Shown here one piece after another: positions 11,852-40,644 of a stretch of 44,184 bases of DNA; within the stretch, counting starts at the first letter, position 1; each line of letters begins with the position of its first letter. The stretch comes from Bryobacterales bacterium (GTDB taxonomy: Bacteria; Acidobacteriota; Terriglobia; Bryobacterales; Bryobacteraceae), in the NCBI GenBank assembly GCA_003169195.1, contig PMQB01000118.1, positions 3,550-47,733 on the forward strand. The letters run 5' to 3'. The translations under genes were made by a program, and so were the position numbers. Below the pieces are notes generated by a model that searched no databases, was not told the origin of the DNA, and was given only the letters and a program-made list of their open reading frames with translations.

Positions 11852-13207
11852 ATGTACGGCAGTAAGCGTTCCATGATCGGCCGCATTCTCATCGGCATTC
11901 TCGCCGCGTCGAATCTTGCGTTAGCTGCCGCGGATGAGGCACCTTTTCCGCCAGTTTCTGATCTCAACTCGGTTCAGTTCTCACTCGAACGGTCGTATTC
12001 TATTTTTGGCTCTGCCAGCTACAAGCTGCAAATTAACGGTAACGGTTTGGTGACGTTTGAAGGCTTCAACAATGTAGCCGTTTTGGGCAAACACACGGGC
12101 CGCGTATCAAAGGAGACGGTGCAGAAACTGCTGGATGCGTTCCAGCGCGCCCATTTCTACTCGCTCGCCAATGAATACGTCAACCCAACTCTTTATGACG
12201 CCCCCTCGCGCATCCTTAGTCTCAAGATCGGCGCAAACAGCAAGACGGTTGTGGATAAAGCCGGGCAGTCAGTGGGAATGCCGACTACGGCCATTGCTCT
12301 TGAGGCCGCCATGGACGCGGCTGCCGACTCAGCCACCTGGGTCAGGGGCAATCGAGCTACTGTTCCAGCGTTACGCGCGGAGGGCTTCGACTTTCACTCC
12401 GAAGCCGCGGGATTAATTCTCACACATACTGCGGCTTCAGGCGTCGACGACGTGGTGGCAGACCTGATTCGCGCAGGTGCTCCGGCGAATACGGTTGATG
12501 CAGATCCCCATTCAGACGGCCGCACAGCCCTGCACAGTTTTGTGGTCAAAGGCGATTTGCGGATGGTGCGCGAATTGATCAAAGCGGGTGCCCACCTCAA
12601 CGATCGCGACCGCGCAGGCATGACGCCTCTCTTGCTGGCTCAATCGCCCGATGTCGCGCAAGCTCTGCTCGATGCAGGAGCGGATCTTGACCTAGCCCGT
12701 GGCGACGGAAAGACAGCACTTGAATTAGCCCGTCAGAATGACAACGCCGCGCTAACAGCCGTTCTTCAACGAGCGACCGACGCAAGCGCTCGCCGCCTCT
12801 GGCAAACCAAAGACCTAACATCTGTGCAATTTTCGCTTCAGCGCTACGGGTGTTACGGCAAGTGCCCGACCTACCAACTGACGATCACGGGAGATGGCGC
12901 TGTCAGTTGGAACGGTGAAATGAATGTAGCCGCAAAGGGCAAGCGCACATCTCACGTTTCCGCCGAGACTGTACAAAAGCTCTTGCAAACGTTTCAGAAG
13001 GCCGATTTCTTTTCGTTTCAGGACAACTACATGTCAGCTATATCAGACTACCCAACCTGCAAAATGTCGCTCACTATCGGTAAAACAAGCAAGACGATTG
13101 TGGATTATGATGGCACGCGCGTTGGCATGCCGCAAGTCATCACGGATTTGGAAAACGCGCTGGATGCGGCCGCGGGCGCGAAGAAATGGATCAAAGGAAA
13201 GCCTTAA
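11852..13207 (+). CDS. Exported ankyrin protein flanked by two DUF6438 domains
   Basis: A 451-residue exported protein (signal peptide MYGSKRSMIGRILIGILAASNLALAAA). An N-terminal DUF6438-like domain (about 40-160) is followed by ankyrin repeats (about 185-305, e.g. GRTALHSFVVKGDLRMVRELIKAG and AGMTPLLLAQSPDVAQALLDAG) and a second DUF6438 domain (323-445). The two copies align end to end (SVQFSLER/SVQFSLQR, VSKETVQKLLDAFQRA/VSAETVQKLLQTFQKA, VGMPTTAI/VGMPQVIT), so one arose from the other. The C-terminal copy keeps C334 and C338 (CYGKC) and a third Cys (PTCKMSL); the N-terminal copy has lost all three. Function is unknown. The start is uncertain: GTG 11831 or ATG 11873 are alternatives. The stop shares bases with wecB's stop. 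Confidence 0.8.
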   Translation: MYGSKRSMIGRILIGILAASNLALAAADEAPFPPVSDLNSVQFSLERSYSIFGSASYKLQINGNGLVTFEGFNNVAVLGKHTGRVSKETVQKLLDAFQRAHFYSLANEYVNPTLYDAPSRILSLKIGANSKTVVDKAGQSVGMPTTAIALEAAMDAAADSATWVRGNRATVPALRAEGFDFHSEAAGLILTHTAASGVDDVVADLIRAGAPANTVDADPHSDGRTALHSFVVKGDLRMVRELIKAGAHLNDRDRAGMTPLLLAQSPDVAQALLDAGADLDLARGDGKTALELARQNDNAALTAVLQRATDASARRLWQTKDLTSVQFSLQRYGCYGKCPTYQLTITGDGAVSWNGEMNVAAKGKRTSHVSAETVQKLLQTFQKADFFSFQDNYMSAISDYPTCKMSLTIGKTSKTIVDYDGTRVGMPQVITDLENALDAAAGAKKWIKGKP

Positions 13208-14325
13208 CGCGTAGCCGCCAGCGCCTGCTGCATATTTAGAAACGTGCTGATGCGCTGGACAATTCGTTCGCTCGCATGCCCATCGCCATAAGGATTGTGA
13301 AGCCTTGCCATGCGCTCGTACTCCGCGGGATTCTCAAGCAGCCGCACCGCCTCCTGCACGATCGCCGCTCGATCTGTGCCCACCAGCTTCACCGTGCCCG
13401 CTTCCACCGCTTCCGGCCGCTCGGTCTTCTCGCGCAGTACTAAGATTGGCTTACCCAGCGATGGCCCTTCTTCCTGGACCCCACCTGAATCCGTAATCAA
13501 CAGATAAGCGTGCCTCATCAGATCTACGAACGGGAGATAATCCAGCGGTTCAATCAATAGAACGTTCGCTTTGCCACGCAACGTTTGATCCACCGCCTTC
13601 TGCACATTTGGATTCGGATGCACCGGCCAAATAATCTGCACGTCGTCACGCCGTGCTAGTTCTGCAATCGCCTGGCAAATGCTCTCAAACCCTTCGCCAA
13701 AACTCTCGCGTCGGTGCGCCGTCACCACAATCAGCTTGCGCGCCGGATCAAGAGGAATGTTGATGCCGCTCAGCTTTCCCGCTTCCAGCGCATCGCGAAT
13801 CGAAAGCACCGCATCAATACCCGTATTCCCCGTGACTTGAATCGATTCCGGCGTCACGCCTTCATTCCGCAGATTCTGTCCCGACCATTCCGTAGCCGCA
13901 AAATGCAGCGCCGCCAGCCGGCCCGTCACCACGCGATTCATCTCCTCCGGGAACGGCGCGTTCATATCGAATGTGCGCAGCCCTGCTTCCACATGAGCAA
14001 CAGGTACGTGCGCATAGAACGAAGACAGTGCCCCGCAAAGTGTGGTGGTGGTGTCGCCCTGCACGACGGTTAGCGAGGGTCGCGCATCGGCCAGCACCGG
14101 TTCCAAACCGGCAATCAGGCGAGCACTTAAAGCCGAGAGCGTTTGCCCCAGCCGCATCAGATCAAGATCGAAATCAGGTTGAACGCCAAACACCCCAAGC
14201 ACTTGGTCAAGCATCTGCCGGTGCTGTGCCGTCACGCAGACGAGAGTCTCCAACCCACTCTGCTGTTGGAGCTTCTGAACAAGGGGACAAAGCTTGATGG
14301 CTTCGGGCCGCGTTCCAAAAATCAC
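13204..14325 (-). CDS. wecB: UDP-N-acetylglucosamine 2-epimerase (non-hydrolysing)
   Basis: A protein of about 373 residues that interconverts UDP-GlcNAc and UDP-ManNAc for surface polysaccharides. The opening FGTRPEAIKLCPLV, the VQGDTTTTL and HVEAGLRTFDMNAPFPEEMNR blocks, VTGNTGIDAV, VTAHRRESFGEG and TDSGGVQEEGPSLGKP are all family signatures in the right order. The GTG at 14325 falls inside the first beta strand. The frame upstream still reads K-P-R-V-L, as homologues do, but has no ATG, GTG or TTG before it meets infA, so the real start may be a rare codon such as ATC at 14361. It follows infA by about 40 bases on the same strand. Confidence 0.93.
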   Translation of the reverse strand: MIFGTRPEAIKLCPLVQKLQQQSGLETLVCVTAQHRQMLDQVLGVFGVQPDFDLDLMRLGQTLSALSARLIAGLEPVLADARPSLTVVQGDTTTTLCGALSSFYAHVPVAHVEAGLRTFDMNAPFPEEMNRVVTGRLAALHFAATEWSGQNLRNEGVTPESIQVTGNTGIDAVLSIRDALEAGKLSGINIPLDPARKLIVVTAHRRESFGEGFESICQAIAELARRDDVQIIWPVHPNPNVQKAVDQTLRGKANVLLIEPLDYLPFVDLMRHAYLLITDSGGVQEEGPSLGKPILVLREKTERPEAVEAGTVKLVGTDRAAIVQEAVRLLENPAEYERMARLHNPYGDGHASERIVQRISTFLNMQQALAATR

Positions 14326-29741: not shown

Positions 29742-30713
29742 ATGATTCAAGTCACAGGCCTTTCAAAGAAGTACGCTAGCTATGTTGCAGTGGACAATAT
29801 TTCTTTCTCTGTGGAGAAGGGCGACATTGTTGGTTTCCTTGGACCCAACGGTGCTGGCAAGACAACTACCATGCGCGTCATCACGGGTTTCATGCCTCCC
29901 ACGGCAGGCAAAGTCACCGTCGGCGGGTTCGATGTGTTTGACCAGCCCATGGAAGTGAAGAAGCGCATCGGTTATCTGCCCGAAAGCCCGCCGCTCTATC
30001 CGGAGATGAGTGTGCGCGATTACCTAACGTTCGTCGCCCGTCTCAAGGGAATTCCCAACATTGAAATTCCCGACCGCGTGACACAAGTCATGAAGAAGTG
30101 TTCTGTTGCTGATGTCAGCGATAAGCTCATTCAGAAACTTTCCAAAGGTTATCGCCAACGTGTCGGCCTCGCGCAAGCTATCGTTCACAATCCAGATGTG
30201 CTGATCCTGGACGAACCGACCTCCGGCCTCGACCCCAAGCAGATCATCGAAACGCGTGATCTCATCAAAGGCCTTTCCGGCGAGCACACCATCATCTTGA
30301 GTACTCACATTCTCCCCGAAGTGGAAGCCATCTGCCGGAAGGTTGTGATTATCAGCAAGGGCAAGGTGGTCAAGACTGACTCAGTTGAGAATCTTAAAAA
30401 CCGTGCTGTGTTTACCATCGAACTCAGTACTGCCGGCGATGCCGACGCCGTGGCCGTGCGCCGCAAACTCGAACAGGTGGCCAGCGTGAGCAAGGTGCTT
30501 GATCATGCCGCGAGCGCCGGCCGCTTTGCTTTTGACATTGAAGGTCTCACCGGGTCTGACGTCCGGCCCGATGTAGCCCGTGCCGTCGTGCAGGCCGGTT
30601 GGAATCTCCTGGAAATGAAATCAAGTACAACCCTGGAAGAAGTCTTCCTCGAATTGACAAACACCGACGCCGGCGTTTCCGAAACCGCCGCTAATAACGG
30701 AGGCGCGCAATGA
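29742..30713 (+). CDS. ABC transporter ATPase, GldA-like
   Basis: A 323-residue ATPase. Walker A GPNGAGKTT is at residues 34-42, the signature LSKGYRQ at 133-139 (a K in place of the second G), Walker B VLILDEP at 153-159, and the switch His in LSTHILPEV. The C-terminal 90 residues form the DUF4162-type tail of the CcmA/GldA group. It is the energy subunit for the following permease, whose ATG overlaps its stop (ATGA). In Bacteroidota, GldA-GldF-GldG serve gliding; in other phyla the same block has no proven role. Confidence 0.95.
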   Translation: MIQVTGLSKKYASYVAVDNISFSVEKGDIVGFLGPNGAGKTTTMRVITGFMPPTAGKVTVGGFDVFDQPMEVKKRIGYLPESPPLYPEMSVRDYLTFVARLKGIPNIEIPDRVTQVMKKCSVADVSDKLIQKLSKGYRQRVGLAQAIVHNPDVLILDEPTSGLDPKQIIETRDLIKGLSGEHTIILSTHILPEVEAICRKVVIISKGKVVKTDSVENLKNRAVFTIELSTAGDADAVAVRRKLEQVASVSKVLDHAASAGRFAFDIEGLTGSDVRPDVARAVVQAGWNLLEMKSSTTLEEVFLELTNTDAGVSETAANNGGAQ

Positions 30714-31477
30714 GAAACGTCTGGACCATTTGCCGGCGCGAGCTTTACGCCTATTTTGTTTCGCCCATCGCCTGGGTGTTGCTAGCCATTTTCAGCATCC
30801 TCAGCGGTTGGTTTGTTTGGGCGGAAAGTTCCTACTTTGTGCAAAACACCATGGCCTCGCAGATGCGCGGCCAGCCTGTGCCCATGAGCATCAACGAGAT
30901 GATCATTGCCCCGATCTTTGGATACATCGCCGTGGTTGGGCTTATGCTTGTCCCCTTCATCAGCATGCGTCTGTTCGCAGAAGAGAAACGGCAGGGAACT
31001 ATGGAACTCTTAGCCACTTCCCCGGTTTACGATTTGGAATTGGTGCTGGGTAAGTGGCTGGCCGCTGTACTGATGTATGGCGCGCTTTTGGCAGTTCTGA
31101 TACTTGACGTATCTTGGCTCTTTATCTACGGCTCGCCCGATTGGAAGCCTGCAGTAGCCGGTTTCATCGGCCTCTTGCTGCAAGGGGCGGGCCTGTTGGC
31201 GTTCGGTGCTCTCATTTCCACCCTCACCAAAAATCAAATCGTCGCCGGCGTCACCGGATTTGGTCTGTCTCTCTTCCTTTGGATTCTCCAGTGGGCAACA
31301 TCATTCGGCGATTCCCTTACGGTCCGAGTCGCAAGCTATATCTCGACCTTGAGCCATATGGAAAGCTTTTCCCGCGGCGTAATTGATACCAAGGATCTTA
31401 TCTATTACCTCTCCATGATCTTCTTAGGCTTGTTCCTGACAACTCGTTCGCTTGAATCGATTCGGTGGAGGGCGTAG
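30710..31477 (+). CDS. ABC transporter permease, GldF-like
   Basis: A 255-residue ABC-2 permease with six membrane segments. It opens MRNVWTICRRELYAYFVSPIAW, the typical cytoplasmic elbow of GldF/NosY-type permeases, and includes LFAEEKRQGTMELLATSPV, the family hallmark after the second membrane span. A GGAGG ribosome site precedes the ATG, which overlaps the ATPase stop. Transported substrate unknown. Confidence 0.93.
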   Translation: MRNVWTICRRELYAYFVSPIAWVLLAIFSILSGWFVWAESSYFVQNTMASQMRGQPVPMSINEMIIAPIFGYIAVVGLMLVPFISMRLFAEEKRQGTMELLATSPVYDLELVLGKWLAAVLMYGALLAVLILDVSWLFIYGSPDWKPAVAGFIGLLLQGAGLLAFGALISTLTKNQIVAGVTGFGLSLFLWILQWATSFGDSLTVRVASYISTLSHMESFSRGVIDTKDLIYYLSMIFLGLFLTTRSLESIRWRA

Positions 31478-32844
31478 TGGCAGACAATACTTCGGTAGCC
31501 GCACAGCAGGCTCGCTTTGGCGCGACTGCCAGCCTTTATACCCTGCTCGTCCTTGCGATTCTCGTCGCCATCAACTATCTCGGCGTACGCTTTAACAGAC
31601 CCATCGATCTCACCAGCAATAAACGGTATACGCTCTCTGACGAAACAAAGAAAATCGTCAGTGGCTTGAAGCAAGATGCCACCATCACCTACTTCGACGC
31701 TTCTACTGCGAACTTTGATCAGGCGCGCGGCATTCTTGATCGCTACAAAAACCTATCCTCAAAAATTCACATCGACTATGTCAACATGCGCACAGATCCC
31801 ATGCGCGCCCGCGAGTTCGGCGTTCGTTTGCCGGGCACCGCCATCGTGAGCGAAGGTTCCCAGCGCGAAGAATCCAAGTCTCTCGACGAGCAGGGTATCA
31901 CCGGAGCCTTCCTGAAAATCTCCAAAGGCATCCGCAAAGTCTGTTTTGTCGGTGGTAGCAAAGAGCATGCGCTCGATCAAACAGAGGGTCCAGGCCTTTC
32001 CGCCTTTAAAACTCTTCTGGAGCGCGATAACTACCAGCCTGAAACGATTACGCTTCTTGAGAAGAGCACGGTTCCTGATGACTGCAAAGTCACTGTGGTG
32101 GCTGGGCCTAGAGGCGACTATACTCCCAATGAAGTGACCGCGCTCAAAACCTATGTCGAAAACGGTGGGCGTGCTTTCTTTATGCTCGATCCTCCTCTCG
32201 ATATTCGCGGTGATCATATCTCCGAAAACACCGGCTTAGATAATCTGTTGGAATCGTGGGGCGTGACACTCGACAAAGATCTGGTCTTGGAAAATACCGC
32301 GCTGGTGGCCATATACGGCCCTCAGAATCCACCCATCAATCATTACGAAGATCACCCCATAGTGAATGACTTAAAGAGCAGCTACGTCATTATGCCCATC
32401 GTCCGTTCTCTGCAAGTCAAGAACGCCGGCAAATCCACCGTTAGCAAACTCTTTTCAACTTCCGACAATGCCGTGGCCACCACAGATCTGAGTAGTGGAC
32501 GCGTCAGCATGGATGATCCGAAGAACAAGAAAGGTCCTTTCGTGCTTGGGGCTGTGGGCAATTACGATACTGGCAAGCCGAACGAAGGTGGTCGCTTTGT
32601 CGTCATAGGCACGTCCTCGTTCATTGCTAACGATTTCATTACCACTGCATTGAATCGTGATCTCGCTTTGAATGTCATCAACTGGCTCTCCTCCGACGAA
32701 GACCTTATCTCCATTCGGCCGAAGGAGCCGGAAGACCGCAAGCTCGACCCCAAAGGGGTTGGTCCCATTGAAGTCTCTGATTTCTTTGGCTTTCCCCTTC
32801 TCATCATCGTGGCCGGCATTGCAGTGTTCATGAAGCGCAGATAG
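31477..32844 (+). CDS. GldG-like ABC transporter auxiliary protein
   Basis: About 455 residues, anchored by an N-terminal helix (SLYTLLVLAILVAINYLGVRF) and a C-terminal one (FGFPLLIIVAGIAVFMKRR), with a large periplasmic domain between. NKRYTLSDETKKIVSGLKQ and the IFT-type domain (about 180-300, VAGPRGDYTPNEVTALKTYVENGG, FFMLDPP) are characteristic. I chose the GTG at 31477 because GGAGG (31467-31471) sits 5 bases upstream and the codon shares a base with the permease stop. A GTG at 31465 is the alternative. It acts with the ABC exporter at the membrane. Confidence 0.9.
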   Translation: MADNTSVAAQQARFGATASLYTLLVLAILVAINYLGVRFNRPIDLTSNKRYTLSDETKKIVSGLKQDATITYFDASTANFDQARGILDRYKNLSSKIHIDYVNMRTDPMRAREFGVRLPGTAIVSEGSQREESKSLDEQGITGAFLKISKGIRKVCFVGGSKEHALDQTEGPGLSAFKTLLERDNYQPETITLLEKSTVPDDCKVTVVAGPRGDYTPNEVTALKTYVENGGRAFFMLDPPLDIRGDHISENTGLDNLLESWGVTLDKDLVLENTALVAIYGPQNPPINHYEDHPIVNDLKSSYVIMPIVRSLQVKNAGKSTVSKLFSTSDNAVATTDLSSGRVSMDDPKNKKGPFVLGAVGNYDTGKPNEGGRFVVIGTSSFIANDFITTALNRDLALNVINWLSSDEDLISIRPKEPEDRKLDPKGVGPIEVSDFFGFPLLIIVAGIAVFMKRR

Positions 32845-32845
32845 T

Positions 32846-34168
32846 ATGGGCACAAAAAAGTTACTCATCGCGGCAATCGTGTTGGCCGCGCTTAGCGGCG
32901 TTTTGTGGTGGAGCAACAAGCACCCGGATTGGGGCAAGGACAAGAAAGACTTGCCCGCCGAATCGCCCGTCCTCGTCAACGTCTCGGACGCTGCTCTCGA
33001 TAGTATTGACATTCAGAAACGGGAGGGCTCCAAGATCTCGCTCGAACGGGAGTCAGGTAAGTGGAGCATCACAACGCCTACTCCTTATCCGGCTGATCAG
33101 GACGCGGCCACCAGCATGGGCTCCGCGTTATCACCCGCCAATGCAGATAGCGTTGTGGAGGATAAGCCCACAGACATCGCAAAGTACGGTCTTACCAATC
33201 CCACCGTTACCGTTACCGCTCACGAAAAGGGCGGTCGCACCGATCAATTGCTCATTGGTGATGACATTCCCGGCGGTTCCCTGGTCTATGTCCGCGTGGC
33301 TGGCAATCCGAAAGTCTACGCTGTGCCCAGCTCTCTCAAAACCTCTTTCGACAAGAGCCTGAATGATTTGCGCGACAAACGTCTGCTGACGTTTGACCAG
33401 GGCCAGCTCACACGAATTGATCTCACTTCCGGTAAAACCACTATCGACTTCGGCAAGAACGGACAAAGTGAGTGGACCATTGTTCAACCGCGGCCTTACC
33501 GCGCTGACAATTTTCAAGTCGAAGAATTACTGCGCAACTTAAGCGGCGCAAAGATGGACTTGAGCACCCCTGCCGCCGATGCGGAGAAAGCGGAGCACAG
33601 TTTTGTTTCAGGTAAACCGGCCGCTACTGTCAAACTGACTGACTCCACCGGCACACAAACTCTCGAAGTTCGCAAGAACGGCGATGATTATTTCGGCAAG
33701 AGCAGCGTCGTGAGCGGCGCTTATAAGCTCACGGCCGATCTAGGCAAGCAGCTCGATAAATCGCTCGATGATTATCGCAATAAAAAGCTCTTCGATTTCG
33801 GTTTTTCCGATCCGAACAAGATTGAGATTCAGCAAGGCTCTGCTACCCGAACCTTTATCAAGAGCGGCAACGATTGGAAGTTAGACGGTAAAATCATGGA
33901 CTCCGCAGCGGTGCAGGCCATCATTGACCAACTCCGCGAACTGGCGGCCACGTCGTTCGCCACCGACGGTTTCACCACTCCAGCCGCTGCCATCACCATC
34001 GTTTCAAACGATGGAAAACGCACGGAAAAGGCAGAATTCTGCAAAACCGCGAGTGGCTATTTGGCCCGTCGCGGCGCAGAGCCGGGCCTTTATCAACTAG
34101 ACGCTAAGGCAGTTAACGATATCCTGGAAGCAAGCGGGAAAGTGAAGCAAGCCGCTTCACATAAATAA
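32846..34168 (+). CDS. Membrane-anchored DUF4340 protein
   Basis: A 440-residue protein with one N-terminal membrane helix (KKLLIAAIVLAALSGVLWW) and a long periplasmic part of repeated DUF4340 units. Three similar blocks appear: SIDIQKREGSKISLERESGKWSI, RIDLTSGKTTIDFGKNGQSEWTI and KIEIQQGSATRTFIKSGNDWKL. Each is a strand-turn-strand ending in a W-x-(I/L). DUF4340 proteins typically follow GldG homologues, as here with a 1-base gap, so this is the fourth part of the exporter. Molecular role unknown. Confidence 0.9.
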   Translation: MGTKKLLIAAIVLAALSGVLWWSNKHPDWGKDKKDLPAESPVLVNVSDAALDSIDIQKREGSKISLERESGKWSITTPTPYPADQDAATSMGSALSPANADSVVEDKPTDIAKYGLTNPTVTVTAHEKGGRTDQLLIGDDIPGGSLVYVRVAGNPKVYAVPSSLKTSFDKSLNDLRDKRLLTFDQGQLTRIDLTSGKTTIDFGKNGQSEWTIVQPRPYRADNFQVEELLRNLSGAKMDLSTPAADAEKAEHSFVSGKPAATVKLTDSTGTQTLEVRKNGDDYFGKSSVVSGAYKLTADLGKQLDKSLDDYRNKKLFDFGFSDPNKIEIQQGSATRTFIKSGNDWKLDGKIMDSAAVQAIIDQLRELAATSFATDGFTTPAAAITIVSNDGKRTEKAEFCKTASGYLARRGAEPGLYQLDAKAVNDILEASGKVKQAASHK

Positions 34169-36120: not shown

Positions 36121-36444
36121 TCAAGTGACCTTGGTCTCCCTGCTCCGCAAAATAGCAGCCAGTACCCGAGGATTACGATTTCCGTGGAGCACGGCCACAA
36201 CCCAAAGCGGTTTCTCGTCGGATGCATAAGCAATCAGGTAATCGTAGACTCGCCAGAACCGTAGCGGCCTTGACGTGAGATCAGTTCGTCGATGCCCTTG
36301 ATGCGGAAACGGTACCAAAGCGCGAACGGCTTTAAGAATATCGCCGTTCACTTTCTCGGCGGCTGTGGCACTCTCGCGCGCAATGTATTCCCAAATCTCA
36401 TCGAGATCAGAAAGTGCCTCCGGGTGAAAATCATACCCGATCAT
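36121..36444 (-). CDS. ParE/RelE-family toxin
   Basis: A 107-residue toxin of the RelE/ParE fold. Marks are YDFHPEALSDLDEIWEYIARES at the N-terminus, LVPFPHQGHRRTDLTSRPLRFWRVYDYLIAY in the middle and VVAVLHGNRNPRVLAAIL at the C-terminus. The pattern is ParE-like (gyrase poison), but mRNA interferase activity cannot be excluded. It starts within the antitoxin's last codons (ATGA overlap), the standard coupling. Confidence 0.9.
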   Translation of the reverse strand: MIGYDFHPEALSDLDEIWEYIARESATAAEKVNGDILKAVRALVPFPHQGHRRTDLTSRPLRFWRVYDYLIAYASDEKPLWVVAVLHGNRNPRVLAAILRSRETKVT

Positions 36445-36704
36445 GAACTGTGCGAATGGAGAGCGTCGCTTTTTCGACGAAAATATGCTTCGACTTCCTC
36501 GCCAGGAATCATCTTTACCTTGCCGCTCTTAATGTCATCGTAGCGACGATCCAGTGTTTCACGCGTCTGCGCCAATTCGTCGAAATAGCTAGCCATTAGC
36601 TCTTCCATTAGTTCCTCGGCCGGACGCCCGGTATCAGCGACCCACTGTTCGACCTTTGCCTGAAGCTTCGCATTTCTAACTTGCAGTTGCATGCCCATAC
36701 TCAT
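36441..36704 (-). CDS. Cognate antitoxin of the ParE-type pair
   Basis: An 87-residue protein: a short N-terminal segment MQLQVRNAKLQAKVEQWV, a ribbon-helix-helix-like stretch TGRPAEELMEELMASYFDEL and a long charged C-terminal helix (TRETLDRRYDDIKSG, then EEVEAYFRRK) of the kind that wraps the toxin. In-frame ATGs at 36704, 36698 and 36692 are all possible starts. It begins 17 bases after the stop of the TIM-barrel gene on the same strand, so the pair may be read through from that operon. Confidence 0.85.
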   Translation of the reverse strand: MSMGMQLQVRNAKLQAKVEQWVADTGRPAEELMEELMASYFDELAQTRETLDRRYDDIKSGKVKMIPGEEVEAYFRRKSDALHSHSS

Positions 36705-36721: not shown

Positions 36722-38668
36722 CTACCGGTAAAACACCACCCGATGTTCCCCCGCCGGCAACACCACCGACCTCACCATCCCATCCCCAAACTTCTTCCCA
36801 TCCACCTCCACTCGCGAAACTGGCCCGCCTAAAACCGCCAGCGCCCTGCTTTTACTTACATACGCCACATCCGCCTGATCCGCCGCGCCCAACGCCGACC
36901 GAATCTCGCCATTGAAATCCGCAATCGCCACCCCCGGTTGCAGCGCACTCGCCTCAAACGTATGCTTTCCCGCCGGCGCTAATACCGTCTGCGCATTCTG
37001 CACGGGCCACAACTTCCCATCCATCTCCACCGCACCTTGCCAGTTCACGCGCGTCGCTTGCGCCGCATTCAATGTCAGCACGCCCGCCCTATCGGTTTGC
37101 GCCACCGCCGTATTCGCCGCCGCCGGCAGTAACGAAAGATCCTGCTTCTCCAGCGAATTCTCAAAATACAAAGCCACTCGCGAAAACGAAACCGCCGCTT
37201 CATGCACCAACTCCAGCAACTCCACGCCCGTTTGCTTCTTGGTTGGATACACGTCCTGATACCGCTCCACTACGTTGATGTCGACCGCCAAGTGCGACCC
37301 ATCTGGCGACAGCACCTTGTACTGCTCGGCCAATTTCGAATACCGTTCCGCGCCCAAGTTCCACAAAGTCGCCGGATCTTCCACCAGCAGCGTGCTCTTT
37401 CTCGCTTGAATCAACGGCAAACTCCGCGCCACATCCGCGCCCAACGCATCGCGAATCCCCGGCTCAAACCGGTCATCAATATGCGTCAGCACAATATCCA
37501 AATAGGGCTTCTGCGCCCGGGTCTTCTCAATCTCATCCAGCCAAGTCGCTTGCAAATTCGAGGCCAGCCCAGCCCGATAATCCAAAAACTTCCGCAAATC
37601 TTGCGCCTTTGCACCAGGCTCCAAAAGCGTCTTCGGGTCAATGCCAGCTAGCTTCTTGTAATCCGCGCGCACATCGTCATTCATCGGCGTAAATCGTGCC
37701 GGATTGCTCGCCCCTTCCAGCGATTCAAAATACAGCTCCGCTAAATTCACTCCGTCCCAATCGAAGCGCTTCAGCAAACCGCCAATCTCTTTCGAAACCG
37801 CCGTACTGCAATCCTTGTTCTGCAAGTTCATCAGCTTGCGCCAATCCAGCTGCGCATCCTGCCCCGCCGCTGTTTTCTCGCGCCACTCCGGATGATCCGC
37901 CCAAAACTTTTCACTTACGTGCGGCAACTCCAGCCACGCATACACCAAAATGGCGTTGCGATGGCAAGCCTCAATTAACCGCGCCATGTATTCATCCTGC
38001 GCGCCATCCGGTTCCATGCTGTGCCAAGCCGCTACATGCAGGACGCCCACACCGGCCTCGCGCCAACGCCGCGCCAAGTAATCCACATCTGCCCGAATCC
38101 GATAAGACGAATCAAAAAAAGCCCATAAGTTCGTAGCATGCAACGGCAAATCCAATCCCAAATCCACCAGGGCCTGCATCAAATACGGATACCGTTCCAT
38201 CCCGCTCAACCCTGGCGCTGTGGCCATCCATAGAACCGCGCCGTGCTCCGTGCGCTTTCCCGCCAAGACCGGAGCGCACTGCCATCGCTCCGTTGCGTAA
38301 ACCGTGAATCCTTCCGGTAATTGCACCTTCGCAATCTCAGCCTGTTGTTCCCAGATGATCTGCATCTTCGGCGCATGCGAATCGACAATATGCCGCACCG
38401 CCACGCGCTCCTTCTGCGGAATAATTCCGAAACCGCGCGCACTCGCACTGTCGCCTTCGAGGATCACAATCTGAGCCGCTGCCAGTTGCGCCTGCTCCGC
38501 TACCGCCGACGCGCCCACCACCACAATGCTCGGGTTAGCACTCGCCCTTGCGATCCCAACCGACCCCAAAATCTTTGTCCACGCTACTGGATTCGCGCCA
38601 TCTACCTGAAACGTTGCCGCCGAAGCCGTCAAACTGCAGCAGAGTAAAAAAGCAAAAGTGTATTTCAT
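36722..38668 (-). CDS. Exported TIM-barrel glycosidase-like protein (GHL10/PgaB-C-like)
   Basis: A 648-residue exported protein (signal peptide MKYTFAFLLCCSLTASA). Residues about 20-175 form an alpha/beta region (VVVGASAVAEQAQ; FTVYATERWQCAPVLAGKR). About 185-430 read as a TIM barrel of the GHL10/Hypothetical-GH and PgaB C-terminal kind: DVDYLARRWREAGVGVLHVAAW, NAILVYAWLELPHVSE, ADHPEWREK, RFDWDGVNLAELYFES and LDIVLTHIDDRF. The acidic residues D and E in DGVNLAELYFE and the HIDD motif are candidate catalytic groups. The C-terminus is beta-rich. The ATG overlaps the stop of the TPR-barrel gene (ATGA). A role in cutting or handling a surface polysaccharide is inferred. Confidence 0.75.
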   Translation of the reverse strand: MKYTFAFLLCCSLTASAATFQVDGANPVAWTKILGSVGIARASANPSIVVVGASAVAEQAQLAAAQIVILEGDSASARGFGIIPQKERVAVRHIVDSHAPKMQIIWEQQAEIAKVQLPEGFTVYATERWQCAPVLAGKRTEHGAVLWMATAPGLSGMERYPYLMQALVDLGLDLPLHATNLWAFFDSSYRIRADVDYLARRWREAGVGVLHVAAWHSMEPDGAQDEYMARLIEACHRNAILVYAWLELPHVSEKFWADHPEWREKTAAGQDAQLDWRKLMNLQNKDCSTAVSKEIGGLLKRFDWDGVNLAELYFESLEGASNPARFTPMNDDVRADYKKLAGIDPKTLLEPGAKAQDLRKFLDYRAGLASNLQATWLDEIEKTRAQKPYLDIVLTHIDDRFEPGIRDALGADVARSLPLIQARKSTLLVEDPATLWNLGAERYSKLAEQYKVLSPDGSHLAVDINVVERYQDVYPTKKQTGVELLELVHEAAVSFSRVALYFENSLEKQDLSLLPAAANTAVAQTDRAGVLTLNAAQATRVNWQGAVEMDGKLWPVQNAQTVLAPAGKHTFEASALQPGVAIADFNGEIRSALGAADQADVAYVSKSRALAVLGGPVSRVEVDGKKFGDGMVRSVVLPAGEHRVVFYR

Positions 38669-40644
38669 TTTGTTGTCTTGGCGTACCAGAAGCCCACGCG
38701 AACATCGTTGTAATTGGGACGGCGCGGATTGTATGCATTCAGCAAATACACGCCGCGCAAAAAATCACCAGAAAAGTAAACATTCTTCGGCAGCCAACTC
38801 GGCCGAAACCGCACACCTGGGCCAAACTCAACAGTATTTGCCCAATACTGCCGCTGCACGTCCTCCACTACGTTGGCGTTCAACAGAAGTTGCAGTGTGT
38901 TTCCGCCTTCGCCTAGTGGCATCGTGCGTCCCGCGCGGTTCTGCGAATAGAACAGCCAGTTTTTGCCAAACCTACTTACATAAATCGCATCGGCCGTCGT
39001 CTCGTAATAGAATCCAGCCTTGCTGCTCCCTGCCAAACTGCCGAACCCTTTCGCATAGTTCAGCCCGCCGCGGTAATCCGGCATCGCGGCGCCCACATTT
39101 TTCAGATCCAGATACTTGATTGATTCGCCCGCTTCCACCCAGCCCGTAAGCCGGTGCCATGTTTTGCTCGCCGCTCCCACGCCCACAATGAACGAACTCT
39201 CCGAAAGGTACTGCGGAAACTGCACATTCTGCCCAATCAGGCCGCTCTTCACATCGCCCGTAAAACGCGTCGAAACGTAAAACGAAACCAGCTTATTCAC
39301 TTTGCCCAAACCCGGAATCGGAATTGAATGTTTGATCTGGCTGTAAGTAAAAAGATCGTGCCAGCGCGAGGAAAACATCGGCAGGGCCCAAACCGTGGTT
39401 TGCGGCATCACATCGCCATTCAAAGTATGAAACGCCTTACTCGCCTCAGTCGCAATCTGTTTGTCCTCGGCGTGCCGCGCTTTATCAAACCAAACCTTCG
39501 CTTCGTCGTCCCGTTTCGCGGCGTTGTAAGCCCACCCGAGTTTCAACATCACTTCTGTGTCTTTGGGGTCCTGTTCCAACGCTTCCAGGAAATACTTGAT
39601 TGCATCGTTGTTAAACCCGGCCGCTAAGCTCTTCAGCCCCATTGCCTTCGGGTCTACGCTCGACGCACTCGGCGCCACCTCCGCCGGATGCGGAACGTCT
39701 TCTGGCCGCGTCTTAAAACCACGTAACGCATTTAACTGTTCGCGCGCCGGCCAGTCTTTCGGATTCAAACTCAGAATCTGTTCAAACTGCTCAATCGCTC
39801 TCGGCTTATCATTCATCGCCAGATAAAGATAAGCCAGTTCCCGCCGCAAATTGCTATTGTGCGGATCAAGCTTCAGCGCACTCAAGAACTCATAGGGATA
39901 TGGATAGCGCGTGCCATACAGTTCCAGCGCCTGTTCCGCCGTGCGTGATTCGCTCGACCGCGAAGCCGCCAACAAAGCCGCCTGCGCATCCTCACCTCGC
40001 TCAATCTGCCGCCACACTCGAGCCAAATGCAGCAAGAGTTCTGCCATCTGCGGCTTTAACTCGCGGCATACTTGATACTCCTTCGCCGCCAGCGGCAACT
40101 CATCGCGCAACTCCGCCAATTGCGCCAGTTCCCAGTGCGCACTAAACATCGTCAAATCGTTTGGCTTCGGCGATTGTTCAATCGCTTGCGACCAGCGCGC
40201 AATGCCCGACGCTAACGGCTGATCGATATTCTGAAACGCCTGTTCCGCCGTCTGCCGCGTGGACGCGGTCCCGTTCTTCCGCAGCTTGTCGAACATCCGC
40301 CGCGCTTCAATCGGTTCCTTCGTCTCAAAAGCCAGAAACGCGAATTCCAGCGCCGCACTCTCATCTTGCGCATTCAGCTTCAGCGCCGCCGCAAACTCAT
40401 CGCGCGCCGCCGCATTTTCACCCGTCTTCAGCAGCGTATACGCCAGATCTTTATGAATGCCCGCGTTCGCCGGTTGCAGCGCAATGCCTTTTTGGAAAAA
40501 CTCAATCGCCCTGTCGTAGTCTTTCTTCTGCAAAGCCTCGTAAGCCTGCGTCAGCTCTTTCTGACCTGGCGGAGATTGAGCTGGAACTAAAACAACTGCG
40601 ACATTAGTAAGGAAGAGAATCAGAACCAACAGGCGAAACAGCAT
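38665..40644 (-). CDS. TPR protein with C-terminal outer-membrane beta-barrel
   Basis: About 659 residues. The signal peptide MLFRLLVLILFLTNVAVVLVPAQS starts at the ATG at 40644, with GGGGA upstream; an ATG at 40686 would extend it oddly. At least eight TPR-like helical pairs fill about residues 30-390 (LTQAYEALQKKDYDRAIEFF; NAGIHKDLAYTLLKTGENAA; NSNLRRELAYLYLAMNDKPR; VMLKLGWAYNAAKRDDEAKV). The last 240 residues are aromatic, alternating strands (FVGV-type turns; RGGLNYAKGFG; GFYYETTADAIYVSRFG; VYFSGDFLRGVYLL) ending VRVGFWYAKTTK, like the NfrA/PgaA/BcsC barrel end. This is the layout of an exopolysaccharide export porin. Translation is coupled to the TIM-barrel gene. Confidence 0.82.
   Translation of the reverse strand: MLFRLLVLILFLTNVAVVLVPAQSPPGQKELTQAYEALQKKDYDRAIEFFQKGIALQPANAGIHKDLAYTLLKTGENAAARDEFAAALKLNAQDESAALEFAFLAFETKEPIEARRMFDKLRKNGTASTRQTAEQAFQNIDQPLASGIARWSQAIEQSPKPNDLTMFSAHWELAQLAELRDELPLAAKEYQVCRELKPQMAELLLHLARVWRQIERGEDAQAALLAASRSSESRTAEQALELYGTRYPYPYEFLSALKLDPHNSNLRRELAYLYLAMNDKPRAIEQFEQILSLNPKDWPAREQLNALRGFKTRPEDVPHPAEVAPSASSVDPKAMGLKSLAAGFNNDAIKYFLEALEQDPKDTEVMLKLGWAYNAAKRDDEAKVWFDKARHAEDKQIATEASKAFHTLNGDVMPQTTVWALPMFSSRWHDLFTYSQIKHSIPIPGLGKVNKLVSFYVSTRFTGDVKSGLIGQNVQFPQYLSESSFIVGVGAASKTWHRLTGWVEAGESIKYLDLKNVGAAMPDYRGGLNYAKGFGSLAGSSKAGFYYETTADAIYVSRFGKNWLFYSQNRAGRTMPLGEGGNTLQLLLNANVVEDVQRQYWANTVEFGPGVRFRPSWLPKNVYFSGDFLRGVYLLNAYNPRRPNYNDVRVGFWYAKTTK

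Follow-up and report, generated by a model that had tools for sequence, protein, structure and literature searches.

A conserved TPR-barrel and glycosidase-like gene pair in Bryobacterales as the probable outer-membrane half of a scattered exopolysaccharide system

Among described exopolysaccharide machineries, those closest to the locus presented here are Pga (PgaA, PgaB, PgaC and PgaD) and Nfr/NGR (NfrB-NfrA-YbcH with WecB). In published accounts, the barrels of PgaA and BcsC comprise 16 strands and the tetratricopeptide repeat (TPR) domains of PgaA and PelB bind deacetylase-hydrolases and alter their activity (PMC9384988), and the C-terminal domain of PgaB is reported to hydrolyse partly deacetylated poly-N-acetylglucosamine (PMC5933820). 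For Escherichia coli, NfrB, NfrA and WecB are described as making a proposed N-acetylmannosamine (ManNAc) polymer, with NfrA modelled as a 16-stranded barrel (PMC8669472, PMC8669469). Here we describe a pair of overlapping genes in a 44,184-nucleotide stretch of DNA from a Bryobacterales bacterium of the phylum Acidobacteriota (assembly GCA_003169195.1, contig PMQB01000118.1, positions 3,550 to 47,733; this whole stretch is hereafter the window), which encode a TPR protein with a predicted outer-membrane-type barrel (P0002) and an exported TIM-barrel, glycosidase-like protein (P0001). We propose, with a probability of roughly 0.6, that the two genes encode the outer-membrane and periplasmic portion of an exopolysaccharide system that depends on a synthase, resembles Nfr/NGR and is scattered over the genome. 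The evidence comprises the genes and their coupling, co-occurrence across genomes, folds obtained by prediction, and the linkage of each half to family 2 glycosyltransferases (GT2s), often together with WecB, in other lineages.

Both genes lie on the minus strand of the window, that of P0002 (659 aa) at positions 38665-40644, as supported by its open reading frame (ORF) and translation, Pfam TPR matches and an AlphaFold2 model, and that of P0001 (648 aa) at 36722-38668, as supported by its ORF, the Pfam matches of its family, a model and a Foldseek search. The two overlap by 4 bases (ATGA, 38665-38668), confirming the coordinates and the arrangement given in an earlier note on this DNA. Export signals of both proteins, as well as several of the gene names used here, were assigned by eye. 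A scan of named genomes identified 236 relatives, the best 80 of which were acidobacterial, mostly Bryobacterales/Bryobacteraceae where named that deeply. The TPR-barrel gene was found directly upstream of the glycosidase gene in 71 of these 80 loci by ORF and in 5 more by tblastn (2 of the 5 being partial, at a contig end). Since the glycosidase begins at a contig end in two loci (L062 and L108), 78 are informative, and the pair is adjacent in 76 of them, the exceptions (L093 and L103) having room upstream and no TPR-barrel there. Whole-genome searches, for which the TPR-barrel profile was applied to 17 chosen genomes, recovered a TPR-barrel in 7/7 genomes tested, including those of both exceptions, with fragments only in the genomes of L062 and L108. 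Of 60 related genomes, 37 contain the glycosidase; taking E<=1e-30 as the limit for the TPR-barrel, 36 hold both genes, one the glycosidase only (G004), three the TPR-barrel only (G003, G013 and G032) and 20 neither, all four single-gene genomes being less than 80% complete (Fisher 8e-12, not corrected for kinship). Clustering of the pair loci revealed no third general gene, the next family occurring in 16/80 loci. The pairing of TPR-barrel and glycosidase is not due to chance, and the recurrence in related genomes that the earlier note had proposed to look for is evident.

A synthase was sought both around the pair and elsewhere. A tblastn search of the window at 1e-6 detected no glycosyltransferase of the query types, in agreement with the earlier note, and no synthase recurs beside the pair among the best 80 of the 236 loci, where L059 and a weak match in L079 were the only occurrences; a local synthase beside the pair was therefore rejected. 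The genome itself possesses, as a candidate synthase, a stand-alone NfrB-like GT2 of matching distribution (G000:C538:3812-5581) with an MshEN domain (E 9.3e-6), so that the module is synthase-unlinked rather than, as previously suggested, synthase-less. Of the export module proposed in the earlier note, the anatomy, conserved coupling and link to polysaccharide synthesis are supported, whereas its synthase-less character is not. A genome of the same genus, G016, comprises a complete NGR-type locus of NfrB with MshEN, NfrA with NfrA_C, DUF4434 and WecB (L168:3110-11303); this genome also carries the pair and a stand-alone GT2. The NfrB of that locus, used as query, identified a homologue in 38 of the 60 relatives at 1e-60, the stand-alone copies having 32-38% identity. 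DxD-type, TED and QxxRW motifs are retained in 18/18 rows of the stand-alone GT2, this genome's copy included, and MshEN was detected on six of seven tested, one of the six lying just under the Pfam cut-off. The GT2 of G056 (L207:9348-12823) is without MshEN, and a BcsB-like gene follows it; here glycosidase, TPR-barrel and GT2 are found on three contigs, two glycosidases standing in tandem and the TPR-barrel lying on another contig.

The distribution of the NfrB-like GT2 follows that of the glycosidase. Among the 60 relatives, 34 possess both, three the glycosidase only (G025, G031 and G035, with the GT2 of G031 later detected with a profile), four the GT2 only (G003, G015, G019 and G032) and 19 neither. 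In a set of 200 genomes from the order, 168 contain glycosidase and GT2 together, 8 the glycosidase only, 7 the GT2 only and 17 neither, where absences are soft because at most 6 candidates were scored per genome; this is co-occurrence with a putative synthase, of the kind that the earlier note had regarded as supportive of a module. Shared absences are also seen in family f3, in which the pair is confined to three of 18 genomes (G043, G048 and G052), exactly the same three that hold the GT2, and 15/18 are without both. Within genus g26, G048 has the pair and the GT2, and G047 and G049 have none of them.

Relatives of each half of the pair were further identified beside glycosyltransferases in a phylum sample of 396 genomes. 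A GT2 profile at 1e-80 detected 15 genomes, consisting of three that carry the pair (796-897 bits) and 12 further genomes (472-593 bits), and around the 12 other GT2s we found an NfrA-type barrel in 5, an NfrA-type TPR in 1 and WecB in 10. Two genomes from two other families (G357 and G268) possess a homologue of the pair's barrel protein, in G357 a TPR-barrel, directly before an NfrB-like GT2; these homologues aligned with the TPR-barrel profile through the barrel by hhalign (E 1.4e-30 and 1.8e-21, respectively), and in G268 the barrel homologue gene overlaps a GT2-WecB fusion gene. The glycosidase family was found at 1e-30 in 11 of the 396 genomes, in three as in the window and in eight, spanning five families, embedded in open reading frames of 1287-1659 codons. 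In these eight, tblastn placed a DUF2334-type domain before the glycosidase and a GT2 after it in 8/8 (two of the GT2s being cut by a contig end) and WecB nearby in 6/8 (one of the two WecB-negative loci having no upstream sequence), with Pfam confirming the domains in two fusions, three GT2s and three epimerases. Given this context of DUF2334 fusion, GT2 and WecB, the glycosidase is, in other lineages, part of an amino-sugar polymer setting. Judged from their gene content, the loci combining WecB, a DUF2334-glycosidase giant and a GT2 (L138-L141 and L188-L191) are possibly an undescribed exopolysaccharide system, and our literature searches found no paper joining DUF2334 with glycosyltransferase, or NfrB with Acidobacter. 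One of the fusions, in G152 (L140:6217-11196), carries an additional GHL6-like stretch in its N-terminal part, and several conserved carboxylates are missing from the glycosidase domain at its C-terminus. Just downstream of GT2 genes we also identified small proteins without a Pfam match (L238:11075-11851 and L140:12372-13202), which appear exported and strand-rich by eye and are candidate small pores. Two candidates drawn from the fused systems were rejected, namely DUF2334 as the missing deacetylase, which is present in 4/60 relatives, absent from this genome and does not track the pair, and the GT2 of the fused systems as the synthase, which is found in only 1/60 relatives at 1e-50.

We examined the potential pore in the AlphaFold2 model of P0002 (60-row alignment; mean predicted local distance difference test score, pLDDT, 90.4; predicted TM-score 0.51), in which the low TM-score leaves the relative placing of TPR solenoid and barrel unfixed. 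Pfam TPRs and helices in the model define the solenoid at residues 28-408 (39421-40563, minus strand). Consistent with the C-terminal barrel noted earlier, residues 415-657 (38674-39402, minus strand) are predicted to form 12 beta-strands of 10 to 16 residues each, a stretch without a family match in Pfam or NCBIfam. Among the matches listed by Foldseek for the whole model, TPR solenoids dominate and no β-barrel occurs, and the search is thus uninformative on the barrel; an hhalign alignment of the TPR-barrel profile to an NfrA likewise spans the TPRs only. With the parity of the strands set with charges counted, conserved charge falls on 16 of 78 inward versus 2 of 73 outward positions, and with the parity reset on uncharged residues only, on 14 of 77 versus 4 of 74, and the hydrophobic alternation of 0.264 exceeds that of controls positioned within the TPR solenoid region by 1.8 standard deviations. 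Inward/outward parity lends weak support to the barrel, since parity was first set using charges and the alternation is 1.8 standard deviations over controls. With 12 predicted strands, the barrel is not a canonical PgaA/BcsC/NfrA pore, in keeping with the earlier view that P0002 could not be named as PgaA/BcsC-type. Sugar porins such as KdgM and NanC are of 12-stranded size, and the predicted strand count, together with a family resembling TonB-dependent receptors by eye in 14/80 loci, might instead suggest oligosaccharide uptake through a sugar porin, with the glycosidase digesting the imports. We regard such a role as very improbable, as this barrel family is linked to synthases elsewhere and, besides the pair, no family occurs in more than 16/80 loci.

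For P0001, the AlphaFold2 model (mean pLDDT 89.1) indicates three domains, all on the minus strand: a small N-terminal alpha/beta domain also supported by alignments (residues 19-178; 38135-38614), a TIM barrel defined from alignments and model strands (about residues 181-518; 37115-38128), whose eight-stranded alpha/beta barrel spans about residues 181-503 in the model, and a C-terminal β-domain (residues 522-647; 36728-37105). Foldseek returned many TIM-barrel glycosidases, and the matches listed include Cwp19 (GHL10) and PslG, the best target-normalised superposition among these being that to Cwp19 (5oq3; E 1.2e-8, target TM 0.60, rmsd 6.2). Against Pfam, P0001 itself reached 17.4 bits for GHL6, under the gathering score of 35, and gave no match to GHL10; of 60 aligned family members, 53 match GHL6 and 46 match GHL10 at E<=0.1. 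The GHL10-type label assigned in the earlier note is hence supported by fold (Cwp19) and by 46/60 relatives, but not by a Pfam match of P0001 itself. Seven carboxylates (D186, E311, D398, E430, D431, D463 and E503) are invariant in 60/60 family rows, and in an alignment of 12 rows that includes distant members each of the seven is either invariant or conserved to at least 90%. According to model strands rather than coordinates, they map to, or close to, the ends of strands 1, 4, 5, 6, 7 and 8 of the barrel, and D186, E311, D398, E430, D463 and E503 are predicted to occupy the C-terminal strand ends. The TIM barrel suggested in the earlier note is supported by the predicted fold. No deacetylase domain was found in P0001 with Pfam, and carbohydrate esterase family 4 was not searched for in the genome.

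DigH is a GHL10-type hydrolase, and the glycosidase could conceivably cut peptidoglycan glycans in the manner of DigH and Cwp19, with the TPR-barrel protein serving as an outer-membrane anchor, for example in cell separation. Cwp19, which has been termed a lytic transglycosylase (PMC6016235), is among the closest folds of the matches listed and shares its TIM-barrel glycosidase fold with P0001, GHL10 matches most family members as given above, DigH of E. coli is described as acting specifically on denuded glycans (PMC12288456), and the glycosidase is found in 176/200 genomes of the order. Conversely, P0001 differs from Cwp19 and DigH in its extra N- and C-terminal domains and in its coupling to a TPR-barrel protein, 15/18 f3 genomes are without the glycosidase, and the relatives of both halves adjoin GT2s, often with WecB, neighbours for which peptidoglycan hydrolases have no need. 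A role in peptidoglycan cleavage thus appears distinctly unlikely.

Compared with Nfr/NGR, the proposed system has in common an NfrB-like GT2 with DxD, TED and QxxRW motifs and mostly MshEN, an exported TPR-barrel protein, and the WecB homologue of the window. This UDP-GlcNAc 2-epimerase homologue (13204-14325, minus strand; ORF; tblastn 48.7% identity, E 2.6e-98) is located ~22 kb from the pair and may possibly supply precursor to the pathway of which it would be a member. The differences comprise the 12 strands and lack of an NfrA_C match of the barrel, the coupling of the porin with a TIM-barrel glycosidase from a different family, and a synthase unlinked to the porin, whereas nfrB and nfrA form one operon. 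Similarly, the predicted folds indicate a likeness to Pga in a TPR-barrel porin adjoining a GHL10/GH153-like TIM barrel, and in glycosidase relatives that carry a fused DUF2334 domain and adjoin a GT2, but the pair differs from Pga in having no deacetylase domain, 12 rather than 16 strands and no linked synthase.

A number of findings weigh against the proposed exopolysaccharide system. P0002 is predicted to lack the 16-stranded NfrA_C barrel of NfrA-type proteins, and its barrel, at the predicted strand count, would be less wide than the known export pores, which have 16 strands. Among 101 sequences around the pair (the 80 loci, 20 region loci partly from the same genomes, and the window), queried with 6 of the 18 GT2 rows, a stand-alone GT2 was identified in one, L059, a single contig of a metagenome-assembled genome, in which it lies 2.2 kb from the pair, is 84% identical to the G024 copy and is separated from the pair by a transposase-like ORF. 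Around the GT2 itself, tblastn at 1e-8 of the sequence at each locus found no pair half, NfrA or WecB in 20/20 loci (19 from pair-holding genomes; G019 is without the pair), and with no porin of either type in these loci the GT2 is not in an operon with the pair. Within the phylum sample, the G268 barrel homologue has no Pfam TPR, a GT2 tree places the barrel-linked enzymes of G357 and G268 with NfrB, outside the stand-alone group, and the 11 genomes with the glycosidase include neither of the two; the four genomes of the fused type that were tested gave no TPR-barrel homologue at 1e-30, and the 15 genomes with an NfrB-like GT2 include none of the eight that carry the fusion. Finally, the co-occurrence of GT2 and pair is confounded by kinship, both being near-universal in family f1 and missing in genomes of g22, and 15/200 genomes are discordant for glycosidase versus GT2; the most informative contrasts are family f3, with its split genus g26, and the two cases of direct linkage. 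This confounding and discordance, along with the unlinked GT2 in 20/20 loci and a survey restricted to these GT2s as synthases, would be consistent with a pair that exports or trims a polysaccharide made by another glycosyltransferase, the NfrB-like GT2 merely sharing its lineages. We consider this alternative rather unlikely in view of the NfrB-like GT2s that immediately adjoin barrel homologues in two other families and of the matched absence of pair and GT2 in f3, including within genus g26.

For the Nfr/NGR-like system that we favour, a mechanism can be envisaged in which the stand-alone inner-membrane NfrB-like GT2 with its MshEN domain would polymerise an amino sugar, from a precursor that is perhaps UDP-ManNAc or UDP-GlcNAc supplied through WecB, probably under the control of cyclic di-guanosine monophosphate (c-di-GMP). 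The growing chain would pass the periplasm along the TPR solenoid, which may recruit or hold the TIM-barrel glycosidase, and, after trimming by this enzyme, the polymer would exit via the 12-stranded barrel. A broader proposal, to which we assign somewhat short of even odds, is that this scattered pathway is general in one Acidobacteriota family, that a new 12-stranded TPR-barrel pore replaces NfrA in it, and that its trimming glycosidase is shared by descent with the separate, possibly undescribed WecB/DUF2334/GT2 pathway.

Other features of the window include genes for a ParE-like toxin and an antitoxin-like protein immediately downstream of the glycosidase (36121-36704, minus strand), and a run of ABC-transporter-like genes, assigned by eye, on the plus strand (29742-34168), the last of which encodes a DUF4340 protein. 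Families of this run are found close to the pair in only a few relatives.

Acidobacteriota are described as abundant in soils (PMC7661733). Synthase-dependent systems are usually recognised by their operons, and a system scattered over the genome, if such is the case here, would be missed by operon-based surveys. If true, our proposal would add a second pore architecture for synthase-dependent systems, together with a concrete candidate synthase that is probably controlled by c-di-GMP.

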